35,387 nt of DNA. Origin: a bacterium. Its GTDB lineage: Bacteria > Elusimicrobiota > Elusimicrobia > Elusimicrobiales > UBA9959. Each line of letters begins with the position of its first letter. Positions within the stretch are counted from its first letter, which is position 1. The notes under the pieces were generated by a model. The model ran no database searches. It worked only from the letters and a program-made list of their open reading frames with translations, and was not told the DNA's origin. Positions 131 to 34,839 of the stretch are shown here, one piece after another. Location of the stretch: positions 1 through 35,387 of the forward strand of contig JAJYJH010000019.1 of NCBI GenBank assembly GCA_021789695.1. Direction: 5' to 3'. Position numbers and translations under genes: made by a program.

Positions 131-466
131 ATGGCTGAAAATAATACGGACTCAAAGGCCGGGACTCAGCGGATCCGCATCCGCCTGAACGCCTACGATT
201 ACAGGCTGATAGACCAGTCCACCGCTAAGATCATCGACACGGCCAAGCGGACCGGAGCGCTCATCGCGGGCCCGGTGTTGCTGCCGACGAGGATCAGGAA
301 GTATACGGTGAACAGGTCGGTGCATGTGGATAAGAAGTCGCGCGAGCAGTTCGAGATGCGCATCCACAAGCGCCTCATAGAACTGATCAGCCCTACTCAG
401 AAGACGGTGGACGAGTTGATGAAGCTCGATCTGCCCAGCGGCGTTGAAGTAGAGATAAAACTCTAA
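131..466 (+). CDS. rpsJ: 30S ribosomal protein S10
   Basis: A 111-residue S10. After a short polar N-terminal extension (about 12 residues) comes the hallmark [18 protein letters not shown], then [20 protein letters not shown] and a C-terminal [14 protein letters not shown]10 sits in the 30S head and in other bacteria also acts in NusB/NusE antitermination. There is no clear Shine-Dalgarno, and the 3-nt gap to tuf suggests translational coupling. In most bacteria rplC follows directly; here a strong terminator follows and rplC is 30.3 kb away. Confidence 0.98.
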
Positions 467-502
467 CTCGACACAGCTCAGCGGTTAGCTTGCTTTTGCC
501 AG

Positions 503-540
503 CCCTGGCGGCGCCCCCAAAGCGCCGCCAGGGTTTTGTT
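503..540 (+). terminator. Strong intrinsic terminator of tuf-rpsJ
   Basis: A perfect 12-bp stem (503-514 with 522-533) closes a 7-nt loop and is followed by TTTTGTTTT. It ends the tuf-rpsJ unit and physically separates S10 from the rest of the S10 operon. Confidence 0.95.
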
Positions 541-29199: not shown

Positions 29200-30057
29200 A
29201 TGAAACTCGCAGCCGTATTTCTGGCCGCCTCGATGCCGTTCTCTCCGGCCGCAGCCTCGGCTGCCGGTCATTCGCTCGCCGTCAGGGTCTTTAACGGGGA
29301 CGTCCCTTACGGGCACGCCGTTCTCGTAAGGGACGGGGAAAGGGCCGAATTCTCCCGCATGGTCAATTCCCGGAGCCTGTCTTTTTCCGGCGGCCTTACT
29401 CGCTCGGGCCGCGGGCTGTACAGACTGGAATACGAGGTCTCGCTTTCCAGCGGTCCCGAGGTAAGAACGCGCTCCTTCCGGACCAGCGGTTCCCTTTCGC
29501 TGATGCGCGGTTCCCGGATTACCGCCGTGGCCTGCGGGCCCTGGCGCCTGCGCTTCGAACTTGACGCGGGCCGCGGGGCCGAAAGCAAGAAGGATACACC
29601 CTGGAACCTTCGCTCTTCCGGAAATTATCATCTCGCCGCCAAGGCGCTGTCCGGTGATTATCCTGAGGACTGCCGTCTGGTCCTGCGGGCCGGCGCTCAG
29701 TATAGCGTATCAGACTCTCTTAGCGAGGCGGGAAAAAGCTATTCCTTCACTTTCGGGGGGGGGCTGTCGTACGGCCCTGGAGGCGAGCCTATGCTTCAGT
29801 ACCAGGCCGAGAACGCTTTGGATGGGGACGCCGCACCGCTTTCGGCTGGCGGGGCCGAACGGCTGCCACTGGGAAGACCCCGGGTGGTGAATGCCAGGGA
29901 GGGGGATCTCTCCGGCCTGAGTATGCGGTTCCTGTTGCTCGGCCGGCCGGGTATCTTCGCCGGCGGGCGAGGCGCATCTTTGCCTGAAAAACCTGCCGGG
30001 CAGCACCAGGAGAGGAAGACCAAGGAGAAGTACGGCACAGTGGAGTTGCTGCAATAG
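29200..30057 (+). CDS. Secreted protein of unknown function
   Basis: 285 residues. Signal peptide cleaved after about residue 22 (AAASAAG). The rest is Ser/Gly/Arg-rich with alternating strands (YRLEYEVSLSSG, SYSFTFGGGLSYGPGG), probably beta-structured, with a charged C-terminus (KPAGQHQERKTKEK). GGAGGAG ribosome site; own promoter in the preceding gene. No family recognised. Confidence 0.72.
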   Translation: MKLAAVFLAASMPFSPAAASAAGHSLAVRVFNGDVPYGHAVLVRDGERAEFSRMVNSRSLSFSGGLTRSGRGLYRLEYEVSLSSGPEVRTRSFRTSGSLSLMRGSRITAVACGPWRLRFELDAGRGAESKKDTPWNLRSSGNYHLAAKALSGDYPEDCRLVLRAGAQYSVSDSLSEAGKSYSFTFGGGLSYGPGGEPMLQYQAENALDGDAAPLSAGGAERLPLGRPRVVNAREGDLSGLSMRFLLLGRPGIFAGGRGASLPEKPAGQHQERKTKEKYGTVELLQ

Positions 30058-30096
30058 GATTTTCCGTCTTTATTGGGCGAACCTTTAGGGAATTTA

Positions 30097-30102
30097 TATA
30101 AT
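30097..30102 (+). promoter_or_regulatory. AT-rich promoter of the small lipoprotein
   Basis: TATAAT at 30097-30102 inside a run of A/T (30091-30117) that stands out in this GC-rich DNA. Predicted leader of about 6 nt for the ATG at 30115. Confidence 0.6.
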
Positions 30103-30114
30103 ATAAATATCTAT

Positions 30115-30507
30115 ATGAATACCGATTGTAACTCCAGTTATAGCTCCAGGCGGCGATATCCGGGCGGCTTCATATTGTTGGCAGCCGGGCTGTTGTGCGG
30201 GTCAGCCTGCGCCCATCGCGGGGCTCTCCCGTCCCGCCTCGAGGGAGTGGTTCCCCAATCAGAGCCCGCCCGGCCCGCGGTGCTTCCAGAAGAGATGTCC
30301 GCCGCCCCGGCGCGGCCCGCTGAGGTCCCGGTTGCTTCTCCGGCGCCGGAGCCGCATCCCAGTTCCGCAGTGAGCCGGGAGGCCGGCCGGATGAGCGAAG
30401 GCTCCCCGGACGATTTTATAGACGTGGACGACAAGCACTGGTTCAGGAAGAGCTGGCCGATGGCGGTGTTCCTGGCCTTGCTGGGGGCGGCGGCGGGTAT
30501 TTTTTAG
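30115..30507 (+). CDS. Small lipoprotein with C-terminal membrane anchor
   Basis: 130 residues from the ATG at 30115; upstream in-frame sequence overlaps the promoter. RRRYPGGFILLAAGLLCGSAC is a lipoprotein signal with lipobox GSAC. A Pro/Ala/Glu-rich middle (about 45-100) leads to DDFIDVDDKHWFRKSW and a final hydrophobic segment (PMAVFLALLGAAAGIF). It may thus be anchored at both ends. No family recognised. No Shine-Dalgarno. Confidence 0.68.
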   Translation: MNTDCNSSYSSRRRYPGGFILLAAGLLCGSACAHRGALPSRLEGVVPQSEPARPAVLPEEMSAAPARPAEVPVASPAPEPHPSSAVSREAGRMSEGSPDDFIDVDDKHWFRKSWPMAVFLALLGAAAGIF

Positions 30508-30522
30508 CAGCCCGGCCTGACG

Positions 30523-30551
30523 TTGACTCCTCCGCGGAGTTTTGTTATAAT
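30523..30551 (+). promoter_or_regulatory. Sigma70 promoter of the rplC operon
   Basis: TTGACT (30523-30528), 17-bp spacer, TATAAT (30546-30551): near-perfect -35/-10. A small hairpin ACTCC-TCCGC-GGAGT (30526-30540) lies in the spacer and runs into TTTTG. The predicted transcript start is about 30558. Confidence 0.88.
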
Positions 30552-30557
30552 AATCCG

Positions 30558-30819
30558 GTAGTTGATCGCGGCAACGCCGCGGTTTCTTTGAAAAGAAGTT
30601 TTTATTATTACGCCGCCGCGTTCTACGGAATACGGGCGGCGGCCCTATAGACGGAGCGGCCTTGATTCCCTCCGCCTGCGGGCTAATCATAGAAACTAAA
30701 AAAAAAGCAGCATCAGAACCGGAGCCGAAAGGTTCCGGCGCGGTCCGTTCGCATTCCGCCGCGGGACCCCGGACGATCTGGGTCTTCTCGTCGGAAGAAC
30801 GGCAAGGAGCGGTACTGAT
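30558..30819 (+). promoter_or_regulatory. Long structured 5' leader of the ribosomal operon
   Basis: About 260 nt without a convincing ORF. Hairpins: CGCGGC-AAC-GCCGCG (30567-30581); a 7-bp stem 30611-30617 / 30635-30641; an 8-bp stem with GAAA tetraloop and one G-U pair (30719-30726 / 30731-30738); GGTCC/GGACC (30742-30746 / 30764-30768); GACGA/TCGTC (30772-30776 / 30788-30792). An A10 run is at 30697-30706. AAGGAG precedes rplC. In many bacteria L4 represses this operon through the leader; here the leader precedes rplC rather than rpsJ. Autoregulation is inferred. Confidence 0.55.
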
Positions 30820-31614
30820 ATGACAGAAGAGAACAAAGAGAACAAGGCTCCCGAGGCCAAGCCGGAAGGAAAGCCGGAGGCGAAGCAGCTCAACTCGGCG
30901 CATAAATTTCTGATCGGCGAGAAGATGGGCATGACCCAGATCTTCGACGCCGCCGGCAACCTGCACGCCGTCACGGTCGTGAAGGCCGGCCCCTGCCGCG
31001 TGGCCTACACCCGCACCAGGGAAAATGACGGCTATCAGGCCGTTTGCCTCGGCTTCGGCCACAAGAAAGAGAAGAATTCCTACAAGGCCGAGTTGGGGCT
31101 CGCCAAGAAGCTGGGCACTTCCGCCCTGAAACACCTCAGGGAGTTTCGCGTCACCGATCTCGCCGGCGCCGAGCAGGGCCAGACCGCAGGCGTAGAGCGC
31201 TTTGCGGCGGGCGACTGGGTGGACTTGCAGGGCGTTTCCAAGGGCCACGGTTTCTCCGGCGGCATGAAGCGCCACAACTTCAAGGGCCAGCCCGCCAGCC
31301 ACGGCGCCAGCGACCGCGAGCGCGCCCCCGGCTCCCTGGGCAGCCGCCGCTCGCTGGGCCGCGTGCTCCCCGGCCAGCGCATGGCCGGCCACTGGGGCGT
31401 AGAGACCGTCTCCGTACAGAAGGTGAAGGTTGTGAAGGTTATCCCCGAGGAGAACCTGCTGCTAGTCAACAGCGGTATTCCCGGCGCGAATGGCAGCATG
31501 GTCTACATCACGCGCACCAACAAGAAGACCCCCAAGCCGGTCGCCGCCGCGCCCGCTAAGAGCAAGAAGAAGGAAGCCGTCAAGGCCGCGGCCAAGCCGG
31601 CCGCCAAGAAATAA
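30820..31614 (+). CDS. rplC: 50S ribosomal protein L3
   Basis: 264 residues, longer than the usual about 210 because of a Lys/Glu/Pro-rich N-terminal extension (residues 1-27) and a Lys/Ala-rich tail (about 235-264). Core motifs: LIGEKMGMTQIFDAAGNLHA, VSKGHGFSGGMKRHNFKGQP and SLGSRRSLGRVLPGQRMAGH. L3 is an early assembly protein of the 50S near the peptidyl-transferase centre. The first gene of this operon here, 30 kb from rpsJ. Confidence 0.97.
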   Translation: MTEENKENKAPEAKPEGKPEAKQLNSAHKFLIGEKMGMTQIFDAAGNLHAVTVVKAGPCRVAYTRTRENDGYQAVCLGFGHKKEKNSYKAELGLAKKLGTSALKHLREFRVTDLAGAEQGQTAGVERFAAGDWVDLQGVSKGHGFSGGMKRHNFKGQPASHGASDRERAPGSLGSRRSLGRVLPGQRMAGHWGVETVSVQKVKVVKVIPEENLLLVNSGIPGANGSMVYITRTNKKTPKPVAAAPAKSKKKEAVKAAAKPAAKK

Positions 31615-31632: not shown

Positions 31633-32259
31633 ATGGAAACCAAGCTCTTTAACCTGAAGGGACAGGAAGTCGGCAAGGTCGACCTGCCGGAGGACATCTT
31701 CTCCGCCAAGCCTGATTCCTATTTTATACACGAGGTGGTTAAGCACTACCTCGCCAACAAGCACCGCGGCACCGCCTGCACGAAGACCCGTTCCGAGGTC
31801 TCCGGCGGCGGAAAAAAGCCGTGGAAGCAGAAGGGCACCGGTCGCGCCCGTCACGGCTCCACCCGCTCGCCGATCTGGCGCAAAGGCGGCGTCGTGTTCG
31901 GCCCTAAACCGCGTTCCTTCCGCCAGTACCTGCCGCAGCAGAAGCTGAGGCAGGCCCTTGTGGAGGCTCTTTCCGCCCGCGCCGCCACCGGCGCGGTGCT
32001 GGCGATAGAGAATCTCGGCCTCGAGGCCGCCAAGACCAGCTCTCTCAACGGGCTGCGCAAGGTTTTGAACGCCAAGAGCGTGCTGTTCGTCACCGACAAG
32101 ATGGACAATAACTTCAGGACCGCGTCCCGCAACATAGCGGACTTCGGCTGGTGCCTGGCCCGCAACCTGAACGCCTACGAGGCGATGCGCAGCGAGAAGC
32201 TCGTTTTCACCGCCGGCGGTCTTAAGGCTCTGGCGGAGAGCGTGAAGGAGGCAAAATGA
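31633..32259 (+). CDS. rplD: 50S ribosomal protein L4
   Basis: 208 residues. Motifs: KGTGRARHGSTRSPIWRKGG in the extended loop lining the exit tunnel, and SLNGLRKVLNAKSVLFVTDK in the globular part. L4 is the known repressor of the S10 operon in E. coli, so it is the first candidate to act on the leader at 30558. Stop overlaps the rplW start (ATGA). Confidence 0.97.
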   Translation: METKLFNLKGQEVGKVDLPEDIFSAKPDSYFIHEVVKHYLANKHRGTACTKTRSEVSGGGKKPWKQKGTGRARHGSTRSPIWRKGGVVFGPKPRSFRQYLPQQKLRQALVEALSARAATGAVLAIENLGLEAAKTSSLNGLRKVLNAKSVLFVTDKMDNNFRTASRNIADFGWCLARNLNAYEAMRSEKLVFTAGGLKALAESVKEAK

Positions 32260-32546
32260 ACTTTACCGAAGTGCTGATAGCCCCCATACTCAGCGAGAAG
32301 AGCGTGCTGCTGAAGGACAAGCAGAACCGCTACACCTTCCAGGTGAACCTCAAAGCCAACAAGACCGAGATCAGGAAGGCCGTAGAGACCCTTTTCAAGG
32401 TAAATGTTACCGCCGTGCGCACCGCCACGCTGCCGGGCAAACTTCACCGCGTGGGCCGCAGCGAAGGCTACCGCTCCGACTGGAAGAAGGCCATAGTCAC
32501 CCTTAAGACCGGCCAGAAGATAGACATGACGGACCTGCCCAAGTAA
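32256..32546 (+). CDS. rplW: 50S ribosomal protein L23
   Basis: 96 residues. APILSEKSVLLKDKQNRYTF and NKTEIRKAVETLFKVNV are typical. L23 sits at the exit of the peptide tunnel and docks trigger factor and SRP. Its start overlaps rplD by 4 nt; GAAGGAGG inside rplD is its ribosome site. Confidence 0.97.
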   Translation: MNFTEVLIAPILSEKSVLLKDKQNRYTFQVNLKANKTEIRKAVETLFKVNVTAVRTATLPGKLHRVGRSEGYRSDWKKAIVTLKTGQKIDMTDLPK

Positions 32547-32568
32547 GGCGGGCTAGCGAGAGGAAAAT

Positions 32569-33408
32569 ATGCCGATCAAATCATACAGACCCTATACCCC
32601 CTCGAGGCGGACGATACAGATGGCCGATTATTCGGACATCACGAATACCGAGCCAGAGAAGAGACTGACCGCCGGTATGCGCAAGCACGGCGGCCGCAAC
32701 AACACCGGCATGGTCATGGTCCGCCACCACGGCGGCGGTCACCGCCGCCGCTTCCGCGCGGTGGATTTCAAGCGCGAGAAGTTCGGCGTGCCCGCGAAGG
32801 TGGCCTCGATAGAGTACGATCCTAACCGCAACGCGCGCATCGCGCTGCTGGTCTACGCCGACGGCGACAAGCGCTATATACCGGCCCCTCTGGGCCTGGG
32901 CGTTGGCGCCGCCGTGATGAGCGGCCCCAAAGCCGAGATCCGGCTGGGCAACGCGTTGCCGATGGCCAACATCCCCGACGGCACGTTCATACACGCCATC
33001 GAGATGATCCCCGGCAAGGGCGCGCAGTTCGTGCGCGCGGCCGGCACGCAGGCGCAGTTGATGGCAAAGGAGGGCGACTACGCCCTCGTCAAGATGCCGT
33101 CCGGGGAGATCCGCAAGGTGCTCAAGAACTGCATGGCCACGATAGGCCAGGTCGGCAACATCGAGCACAATACGATAACCCTCGGCAAGGCCGGCCGCAA
33201 GCGCCACCTGGGCATCCGCCCGACCGTGCGCGGCGCCGCGATGAACGCCGTCGACCACCCGCTCGGCGGTGGCCGCGGACATTCCAAGGGCAACAACGTT
33301 CCGCGCTCGCCGTGGAACCAGCCGTCCAAGGGCTTCAAGACCAGGACCAAGTCTAAGATTTGGAGCTGGATGATAGTGCAGGACCGCCGCAAGGCGACGG
33401 CCGCGTAA
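32569..33408 (+). CDS. rplB: 50S ribosomal protein L2
   Basis: 279 residues. Contains [20 protein letters not shown] and, near the end, [17 protein letters not shown] with the conserved His implicated in peptidyl transfer. One of the most conserved 50S proteins; length as expected. GAGAGGA ribosome site. Confidence 0.98.
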
Positions 33409-33419
33409 CGGAGGAATAA

Positions 33420-33707
33420 ATGAGCAGATCGTCTAAAAAAGGGCCTTTCGTCGACCAGAAGCTGCTGGCCAAGATTCAGGCCGCCGTGGCTAGCGGCGCC
33501 AAGACGCAGATAAAGACCTGGGCGCGCGCCTGCACGATAACCCCCGAGTTCGTCGGGCAGACGCTGATGGTGCACAATGGCCGGAAGTTCCTGCCGGTGT
33601 ACGTGACCGAGCGCATGGTCGGCCACAAGTTGGGCGAGTTCTCTTTCCCGCGGCTCTTTAAGGGTCACGGCCAGTCGCATACCAAGGAAGCGACGGACCT
33701 CACCTAA
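33420..33707 (+). CDS. rpsS: 30S ribosomal protein S19
   Basis: 95 residues. [39 protein letters not shown]. Length and motifs match S19, which contacts the tRNA decoding region with S13 in the 30S head. GGAGG upstream. Confidence 0.98.
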
Positions 33708-33731
33708 CGGGGCTATTTAAGGGAGAATATC

Positions 33732-34100
33732 ATGGACGCTAAATGCCATCTCAAATACCAGCGCTACGGCCGCCGCAAGGTCGCCCAGCTGATGGACCAG
33801 GTAAGGGGCAAGTCCCTTTACGAGGCTCAGTACATACTGGCCAGCATCCCGATGCGGGCCACCGACGTGTTGGGTAAGGCCATCAAGTCCGCCGGCGCCA
33901 ACCTGTCCGTCAAACTAGGCAAGAAGCTGGACCTCAGGCAGGTCTGGGTGACCGAGTGCTTCGCCGACCAGGGCCCGATGAAGTCCCTGCGCCGCGTGCA
34001 GCCCGGCCCGCAGGGCCGCGCGATGCCGTTCAAGCGCAAGATGTGCCACATCAGCGTGGTCGTCTCGGACACTAAGCAGAAGTCCAAGGAGAGCAACTAA
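33732..34100 (+). CDS. rplV: 50S ribosomal protein L22
   Basis: 122 residues. YGRRKVAQLMDQVRGKSLYE and LRRVQPGPQGRAMPFKRKMC include the long beta hairpin that lines the exit tunnel, where macrolide-resistance changes occur in other species. GGGAG ribosome site. One nt separates it from rpsC. Confidence 0.97.
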   Translation: MDAKCHLKYQRYGRRKVAQLMDQVRGKSLYEAQYILASIPMRATDVLGKAIKSAGANLSVKLGKKLDLRQVWVTECFADQGPMKSLRRVQPGPQGRAMPFKRKMCHISVVVSDTKQKSKESN

Positions 34101-34101
34101 T

Positions 34102-34839
34102 ATGGGTCAGAAAATACACCCCAGGGGCTTAAGGCTCGGCTACATCCAGGACTGGCAGTCCCGCTGGTTCTCTCCCAAGAAGATGCCCGAGCTGATCCGC
34201 GAGGACTTCGAGATAAGGCACATGGTGACGGAACGCTTCGCCACGGCTTCCGTCAGCTGGGTGGACATCGAGCGCGCCGGCGCGTACCTGAAGGTGACAA
34301 TCCACACCGCCCGCCCGGGAGTCGTGATCGGCCGCAAGGGTGCCGACATAGAGGCCCTGAAAAAGGCCGTGGAGCGCCTGACAAAGCGCAAGGTTTTTGT
34401 CAACGTTTCCGAGATCAAGATCCCCGAGCTGGATGCCCGCCTTGTCGGGCAGTCCGTGGCTCAGCAATTGGAGAAACGCATCAGTTTTAAGCGCGCTATC
34501 AAGCGCGCGATGGAGCGCACGATGGGCTCCGGCGCGCTCGGTATAAAGGTCATGGCCTCCGGCCGCCTCGGCGGCGCCGAGATAGCCCGCCGCGAGTGGT
34601 ACCGCAAGGGCCGCGTGCCGCTGCAGACCATCTCCGCCGACATCGACTACGGCCTTACCGAAGCCCACACCTCGATGGGCAAAATCGGTATAAAGGTCTG
34701 GATCTTCAAGAAACTCTTCTTCGCGAAGACCCCGCGCGAACTGCGCGAGCAGCTGATGAAGCTTGAGGCCGAGAACCCGACCGAGACCCCGGTGCTGGAC
34801 GAGGCCGCCGCCGCACGCAACGCGCAGCCGTCCGCCTGA
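34102..34839 (+). CDS. rpsC: 30S ribosomal protein S3
   Basis: 245 residues. [20 protein letters not shown], the type II KH domain with [17 protein letters not shown], and [21 protein letters not shown]3 forms part of the mRNA entry helicase site. A short acidic/Ala tail follows the core. AAGGAGAG lies in the end of rplV. Confidence 0.97.

Follow-up and report, generated by a model that had tools for sequence, protein, structure and literature searches.

A conserved, structured RNA upstream of rplC in one family of Elusimicrobiota is probably an unlisted ribosomal-protein leader

We found that rplC of an elusimicrobial bacterium is preceded by a conserved and structured RNA that lies behind a conserved promoter and is tied to rplC, and that is probably an unlisted ribosomal-protein leader of the rplC-rplD-rplW-rplB operon. 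The window, that is, the whole stretch of 35,387 nucleotides analysed here (contig JAJYJH010000019.1), ends in the start of an S10-type operon, rplC-rplD-rplW-rplB-rpsS-rplV-rpsC, whose genes were identified by profile matches (Table 1), the rplV match of 69 bits being just below the curated cut-off of 73.65. In L3, the product of rplC, an N-terminal extension of ~30 residues (30820-30909) stands ahead of the match to the family model, which covers residues 31-230. In the reading that we favor, and that we consider rather likely, the RNA is a cis-acting leader through which a downstream-encoded ribosomal protein, most likely L4 and otherwise L3, would lower expression of the whole operon. Within the known kind of ribosomal-protein leaders, the RNA would then represent a new structural class.

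Promoter prediction across positions 30000-31000 returned a single plus-strand promoter, which matches the consensus at 11 of 12 positions and has an extended -10; it places the predicted start of transcription at ~30558 and leaves ~262 nt to the rplC ATG at 30820. The initial annotation had likewise described a promoter at consensus strength and a leader of about 260 nt, and both descriptions held. The same arrangement recurred among relatives: a TANAAT -10 with a TG lay upstream of the core in all 45 leaders, the TG having played no part in the choice of the best -10 (the -10 of leader L030 reads TATTAT), the promoter score was at least 10 of 12 in 40 of the 45, and the end of the -10 was separated from a conserved CCTATAG motif by 88-99 nt, again in 40 of 45. 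Between the core and rplC, a second promoter of the same kind was predicted in none of 44 leaders. Transcription starting close to 30820, which the initial annotation had named as one of two observations that would undo its proposal, was rejected on the basis of this prediction.

The RNA from 30558 to 30840 folded at -111.4 kcal/mol, compared to a mean of -94.2 kcal/mol for shuffled sequences (z -3.43), and none of 200 shuffles reached so low an energy, in agreement with the earlier description of a hairpin-rich leader. The GAAA-capped 8-bp stem of that description was recovered as P4, and its stem and flanks were conserved in the window's genus, as seen in an alignment that took in 20 of its 29 leaders and omitted the more divergent ones and those carrying long 3' inserts. 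The most conserved part of the leader was not P4 but the core, a three-way junction of the helices P1, P2 and P3. Ahead of P1, a 5' hairpin of differing sequence was present in most of the members folded and was weak or different in some. P1 itself reads GUUUUUAU/AUARAAAC in most genera, while genus g5 carries a wholly different sequence (UUUAGGUUU/AAACCUAAG or similar) with the pairing kept. A pairing of P1 proposed by RNAalifold, of 5' GUUUCU with AGAAAC, was set aside, as other genera pair GUUUUUAU with AUAAAAAC.

Table 1. Features of the window that bear on the rplC leader
Feature	Position	Strand	Basis or remark
rpsJ (S10)	131..466	+	30 kb upstream of the leader, same strand
Intrinsic terminator after rpsJ	501..535	+	14 pairs (11 GC) followed by TTGTTTT
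Promoter	30523..30551	+	TTGACT, 17-nt spacer, TATAAT, TG ahead of the -10; 11/12 consensus matches
Predicted 5' leader of the rplC operon, ~262 nt	30558..30819	+	start site inferred from the promoter
P0, 5' hairpin	30564..30584	+	fold; 9 bp, AAC loop
Conserved core, three-way junction P1-P2-P3	30596..30698	+	covariance models R1 and R2
P1, 5' strand	30597..30605	+	fold; pairs with 30689-30697
P2 hairpin	30611..30641	+	30611-30623 with 30628-30641; conserved, nearly invariant CGUUC...GAAUAC
P3 hairpin	30642..30683	+	internal loop CCUAUAG/CUGCGG; covarying stem; conserved apical GGCCU..AUUCC
P1, 3' strand	30689..30697	+	fold; pairs with 30597-30605
P4, 8-bp stem with GAAA loop	30719..30738	+	sequence and fold
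P5, variable 3' hairpin region	30739..30799	+	fold and genus alignment
Ribosome-binding site of rplC, AAGGAG	30804..30809	+	AAGGAG motif also in other leaders of the genus
rplC (L3)	30820..31614	+	TIGR03625
rplD (L4)	31633..32259	+	TIGR03953
rplW, rplB, rpsS, rplV, rpsC	32256..34839	+	profile matches

Covariation across relatives strongly supported the core. A covariance model (R1) built from 8 seed sequences, none of them of the window's genus and with divergent or duplicate members left out, scored the window's core at 96.2 bits (E 6.6e-22), and a second model (R2), among whose seeds is the window's own sequence, scored it at 109.8 bits. Upon aligning 40 of the 46 members (36 distinct rows), we found 98.9% of the cells paired, versus 91.8% for shuffled and 43.9-51.1% for slid alignments; with the divergent genus g5 added (33 of 46 members), 98.0% were paired and double-sided changes occurred at 18 of 34 pairs. 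The best supported helix was P3, with 99.8% of cells paired and double-sided changes at 6 of 14 pairs. On a tree of the L3 proteins, a quick build with many weak branches, we counted at least eight and at least nine coincident double changes at two pairs of P3 and at least five at one pair of P2, and the mean was 3.1 for true partners versus 0.67 for 112 non-partner column pairs, the summed count taking in P2 and P3 only. Some double changes in P1 (alignments A6 and A8) were register shifts of the model fit and were excluded as support, whereas the differently built P1 of g5 was counted. Hence, the check across relatives that the initial annotation had proposed yielded compensatory changes in the stems that were strong and recurred on the tree of the rplC protein.

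Sequence conservation was concentrated in the same region. A block of ~100 nt 5' of rplC was nearly unchanged in the window's genus, and the mean pairwise identity among 29 genus leaders was 90% in the core, 86% in the 5' hairpin segment and 57% across the remaining 3' leader, where at the same loci rplC codons 31-130 gave 80% and the 100 nt upstream of the promoter 46%; the first genus-only alignments omitted divergent or duplicate members. Scanning 340 genomes of the phylum with R2, under strict filters that may miss weak copies, we detected the core in 46, one copy each, all among the 59 genomes of the window's family and none among the 281 elsewhere. Of 61 genomes, made up of the window's own and 60 relatives, 58 yielded L3, and rplC started 140-288 nt beyond CCTATAG in 44 of 45 leaders, the remaining one being cut by the contig end. 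At one locus (L036, genome G005), rplC was split into two frames in the assembly, probably through an error in sequencing or assembly. When 84,980 species genomes were scanned with a pattern, 41 contigs were returned, of which 35 carry the name Elusimicrobia, Elusimicrobiales or Elusimicrobiota, while 6 are titled "bacterium" alone and match loci of the window's genus; rplC lay downstream in 38 of the 41, and in the other 3 the locus ended too early or gave no match. Two marks of a ribosomal-protein leader, a constant position 5' of ribosomal-protein genes and a covarying structure, were thus present.

The core is not needed everywhere in the family, 13 of whose genomes gave no match. In 3 of these no rplC was found and in 1 rplC stands at the contig start, but the other 9 have rplC with readable upstream DNA and gave no core match even with the filters off. 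By eye, several of these nine (g14, g11, g92 and g91) carry a promoter-like TATAAT together with another leader rich in hairpins at the corresponding position. At the three g14 loci (L136, L137 and L138), a different leader that has a promoter-like site of its own lies ~100-350 nt upstream of rplC; its hairpin has a stem that differs among the three loci yet looks paired, and its 5' segment (ACCUUAA...GUUCUUUUGAA) is similar to the one in other genera. In L132, L133, L134 and L140 (g92, g11 and g91), rplC is also preceded by promoter-like sites and hairpin-rich leaders that lack the core, and these are possibly diverged or replaced leaders.

The position of rpsJ bears directly on the origin of the leader. 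The initial annotation held rpsJ to be absent, which was mistaken: the gene lies near the other end of the window and is followed directly by a strong intrinsic terminator, so that the two operon halves look transcriptionally separate. In all 16 leader-bearing genomes with rpsJ and the leader on one contig, rpsJ was upstream on the same strand. The two lay 88-144 nt apart in three genomes of the sister genus g13 (G120, G145 and G251); four genomes of g10 and g12 had 2-34 kb between them, and nine from the window's genus had 16-79 kb. As the leader keeps to rplC while rpsJ stays collinear upstream at varied distance, we regard it as an rplC-proximal element and not as a leader of rpsJ. Of the two origins that had been offered, a relocated or a new autoregulatory element, we therefore retained the new ribosomal-protein leader, in keeping with its conserved promoter, covarying structure, strict association with rplC and lack of an Rfam match, and rejected relocation, given rpsJ within the window and the three g13 genomes in which the leader separates neighboring rpsJ and rplC genes. 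Among genomes of the sister family f2, 22 of 22 with both genes had the rpsJ and rplC matches at most 0.25 kb apart, and the core leader was absent. The usually tight junction is now an insertion site, its interval (0.09-79 kb in the 16 genomes) holding ordinary, variable genes; in the window (466-30523) these include two-component proteins, a MatE exporter, a penicillin-binding protein and a peptidase, and of 31 interval open reading frames tested, 30 had relatives within the matching interval of G007, the closest relative, and 5 within that of G023. The split between rpsJ and rplC may be a separate event or a consequence. Positions 1-127 of the window are presumably the 3' end of tuf, and several contigs that carry rpsJ start or stop no more than a few hundred bases from it; perhaps a duplication of tuf breaks assemblies near this gene.

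Searches for known RNAs and for recognizable switches gave little. Rfam 15 had no match at gathering score in the window and nothing relevant in leader L001 up to E 10 or in six other members up to E 5, and a 17-bit match to L2-Alphaproteobacteria in L066 was below gathering score and far from the leader, which led us to reject a known Rfam RNA, including a riboswitch or T-box. Simple searches for mimicry of the genome's own 23S rRNA likewise gave no result better than chance: no k-mers pointed to it, 114 of 200 shuffles scored as high in local alignment and the best covariance hit reached 9.7 bits, where a mimic in three dimensions lies beyond searches of this type. Terminator-like hairpins between the core and rplC were found in 15 of 44 leaders, compared to 87 of 440 shuffles, and none occurred after the core in the window's own leader, so that intrinsic-terminator attenuation is a weak candidate for a conserved mechanism. 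The ribosome-binding site was partly paired on average (median unpaired probability 0.38); we found no conserved partner pairing with it, and by eye P3 offered only a four-base GGAG/CUYC match. In the open-access literature, a body that most subscription papers lie outside, we found no ribosomal-protein leader from Elusimicrobiota.

From these results, we infer a regulatory role for the RNA, its binding by a ribosomal protein, the identity of that protein and a route of the signal to rplC. RNA polymerase would start near 30558 and produce the three-way-junction RNA, whose conserved loops (P2 CGUUC/GAAUAC, P3 CCUAUAG/CUGCGG and the P3 apical loop) would form the putative binding site. A ribosomal protein present in excess over rRNA, most likely L4 and otherwise L3, may bind there and lower expression of the seven genes from rplC to rpsC, either at transcription, by a pause or attenuation around P4, or at the initiation of rplC translation. 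L4 is our tentative choice of ligand, with a chance a little short of even, and L3, the next candidate, we consider unlikely. The choice of L4 follows from analogy with the E. coli S10 operon, for which PMC10931766 describes L4 as the established feedback ligand acting on both transcription and translation, and from the "prior ligand" rule of PMC7247131, which would name L4 here.

Several other explanations would account for part of these data. The core could be a ligand-free structural 5' element that makes the mRNA more stable, shields rplC from transcription arriving from upstream or favors antitermination via general factors; the very strong, constitutive-looking promoter, the terminator after rpsJ and the lack of a conserved attenuator would all fit such an element, but invariant internal-loop nucleotides and a conserved apical loop exceed what a plain stabilizing stem needs, and we consider it unlikely, if somewhat less so than its competitors. 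Three-way junctions with invariant internal- and apical-loop nucleotides are a common plan of aptamers. The core, built in this way, might hence sense a ligand other than a ribosomal protein (a metabolite, an ion, a nucleotide signal or uncharged tRNA) and tune ribosome synthesis to growth, a notion that also agrees with the lack of detectable rRNA mimicry and that would call for a new aptamer class, known ones being out for want of an Rfam riboswitch or T-box match. Riboswitch classes, however, usually also control metabolic or transport genes, whereas the core was seen before rplC only and in one copy per genome, which makes such an aptamer rather improbable. We hold a more specific version to be more doubtful still, in which the core, as an aptamer, would read a cellular signal (a nucleotide, a metabolite or the state of tRNA) and set ribosomal-protein synthesis directly, and in which the gain of the leader, with its own promoter after the rpsJ terminator, would have split rpsJ from rplC in this family and let ordinary genes, up to 79 kb of them, settle in between.

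An independent small RNA gene that stands before rplC by chance would likewise be a compact conserved RNA with its own promoter, and in many relatives P4 is followed by a U-rich tract. Within the window's own clade, however, that tract is not conserved, the core stays constantly beside rplC while the upstream gene content varies, and none of the 44 leaders offered rplC another promoter, so that we regard a small RNA gene as very improbable. Chance folding without function has in its favor that GC-rich hairpins form readily in GC-rich DNA, as the well-folding shuffles illustrate; the depth of conservation, the model search and above all the covariation, which refutes it, leave it a negligible chance. 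We thus continue to favor a ribosomal-protein leader. If it binds L4, it would add one more unrelated RNA that solves the same feedback problem, this one in front of rplC rather than rpsJ. Its core, a compact covarying domain of ~103 nt, lends itself to binding and structural studies, and the leader marks the place where the normally clustered operon halves came apart.

Like the Elusimicrobial leader, the L4-binding S10 leader of E. coli and the S10 leader of Firmicutes are long and structured and have their own strong promoter in front of an operon with rplC-rplD-rplW-rplB, and here too the operon encodes L4. Both of these known leaders precede rpsJ, in the E. coli type as the first gene of the operon, whereas the Elusimicrobial leader starts at rplC and, where rpsJ is its neighbor, lies downstream of that gene; it is not a member of the E. 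coli-type S10 class. It further differs in having no Rfam match, no conserved terminator and, in L4, a putative ligand. For its position there is a precedent in the Archaeoglobi L4 leader, which, according to Table 1 of PMC7247131, precedes rplC, rplD, rplW and rplB and for which L4 was proposed from gene content; that RNA is archaeal, the precedent concerns position only, and no Rfam match found here equates the two. The core had no Rfam match to other ribosomal-protein leaders either (L2 of Alphaproteobacteria, L20, S4, S15, L31 and others), yet these are likewise restricted to a phylum or class and place covarying stems before ribosomal-protein genes.
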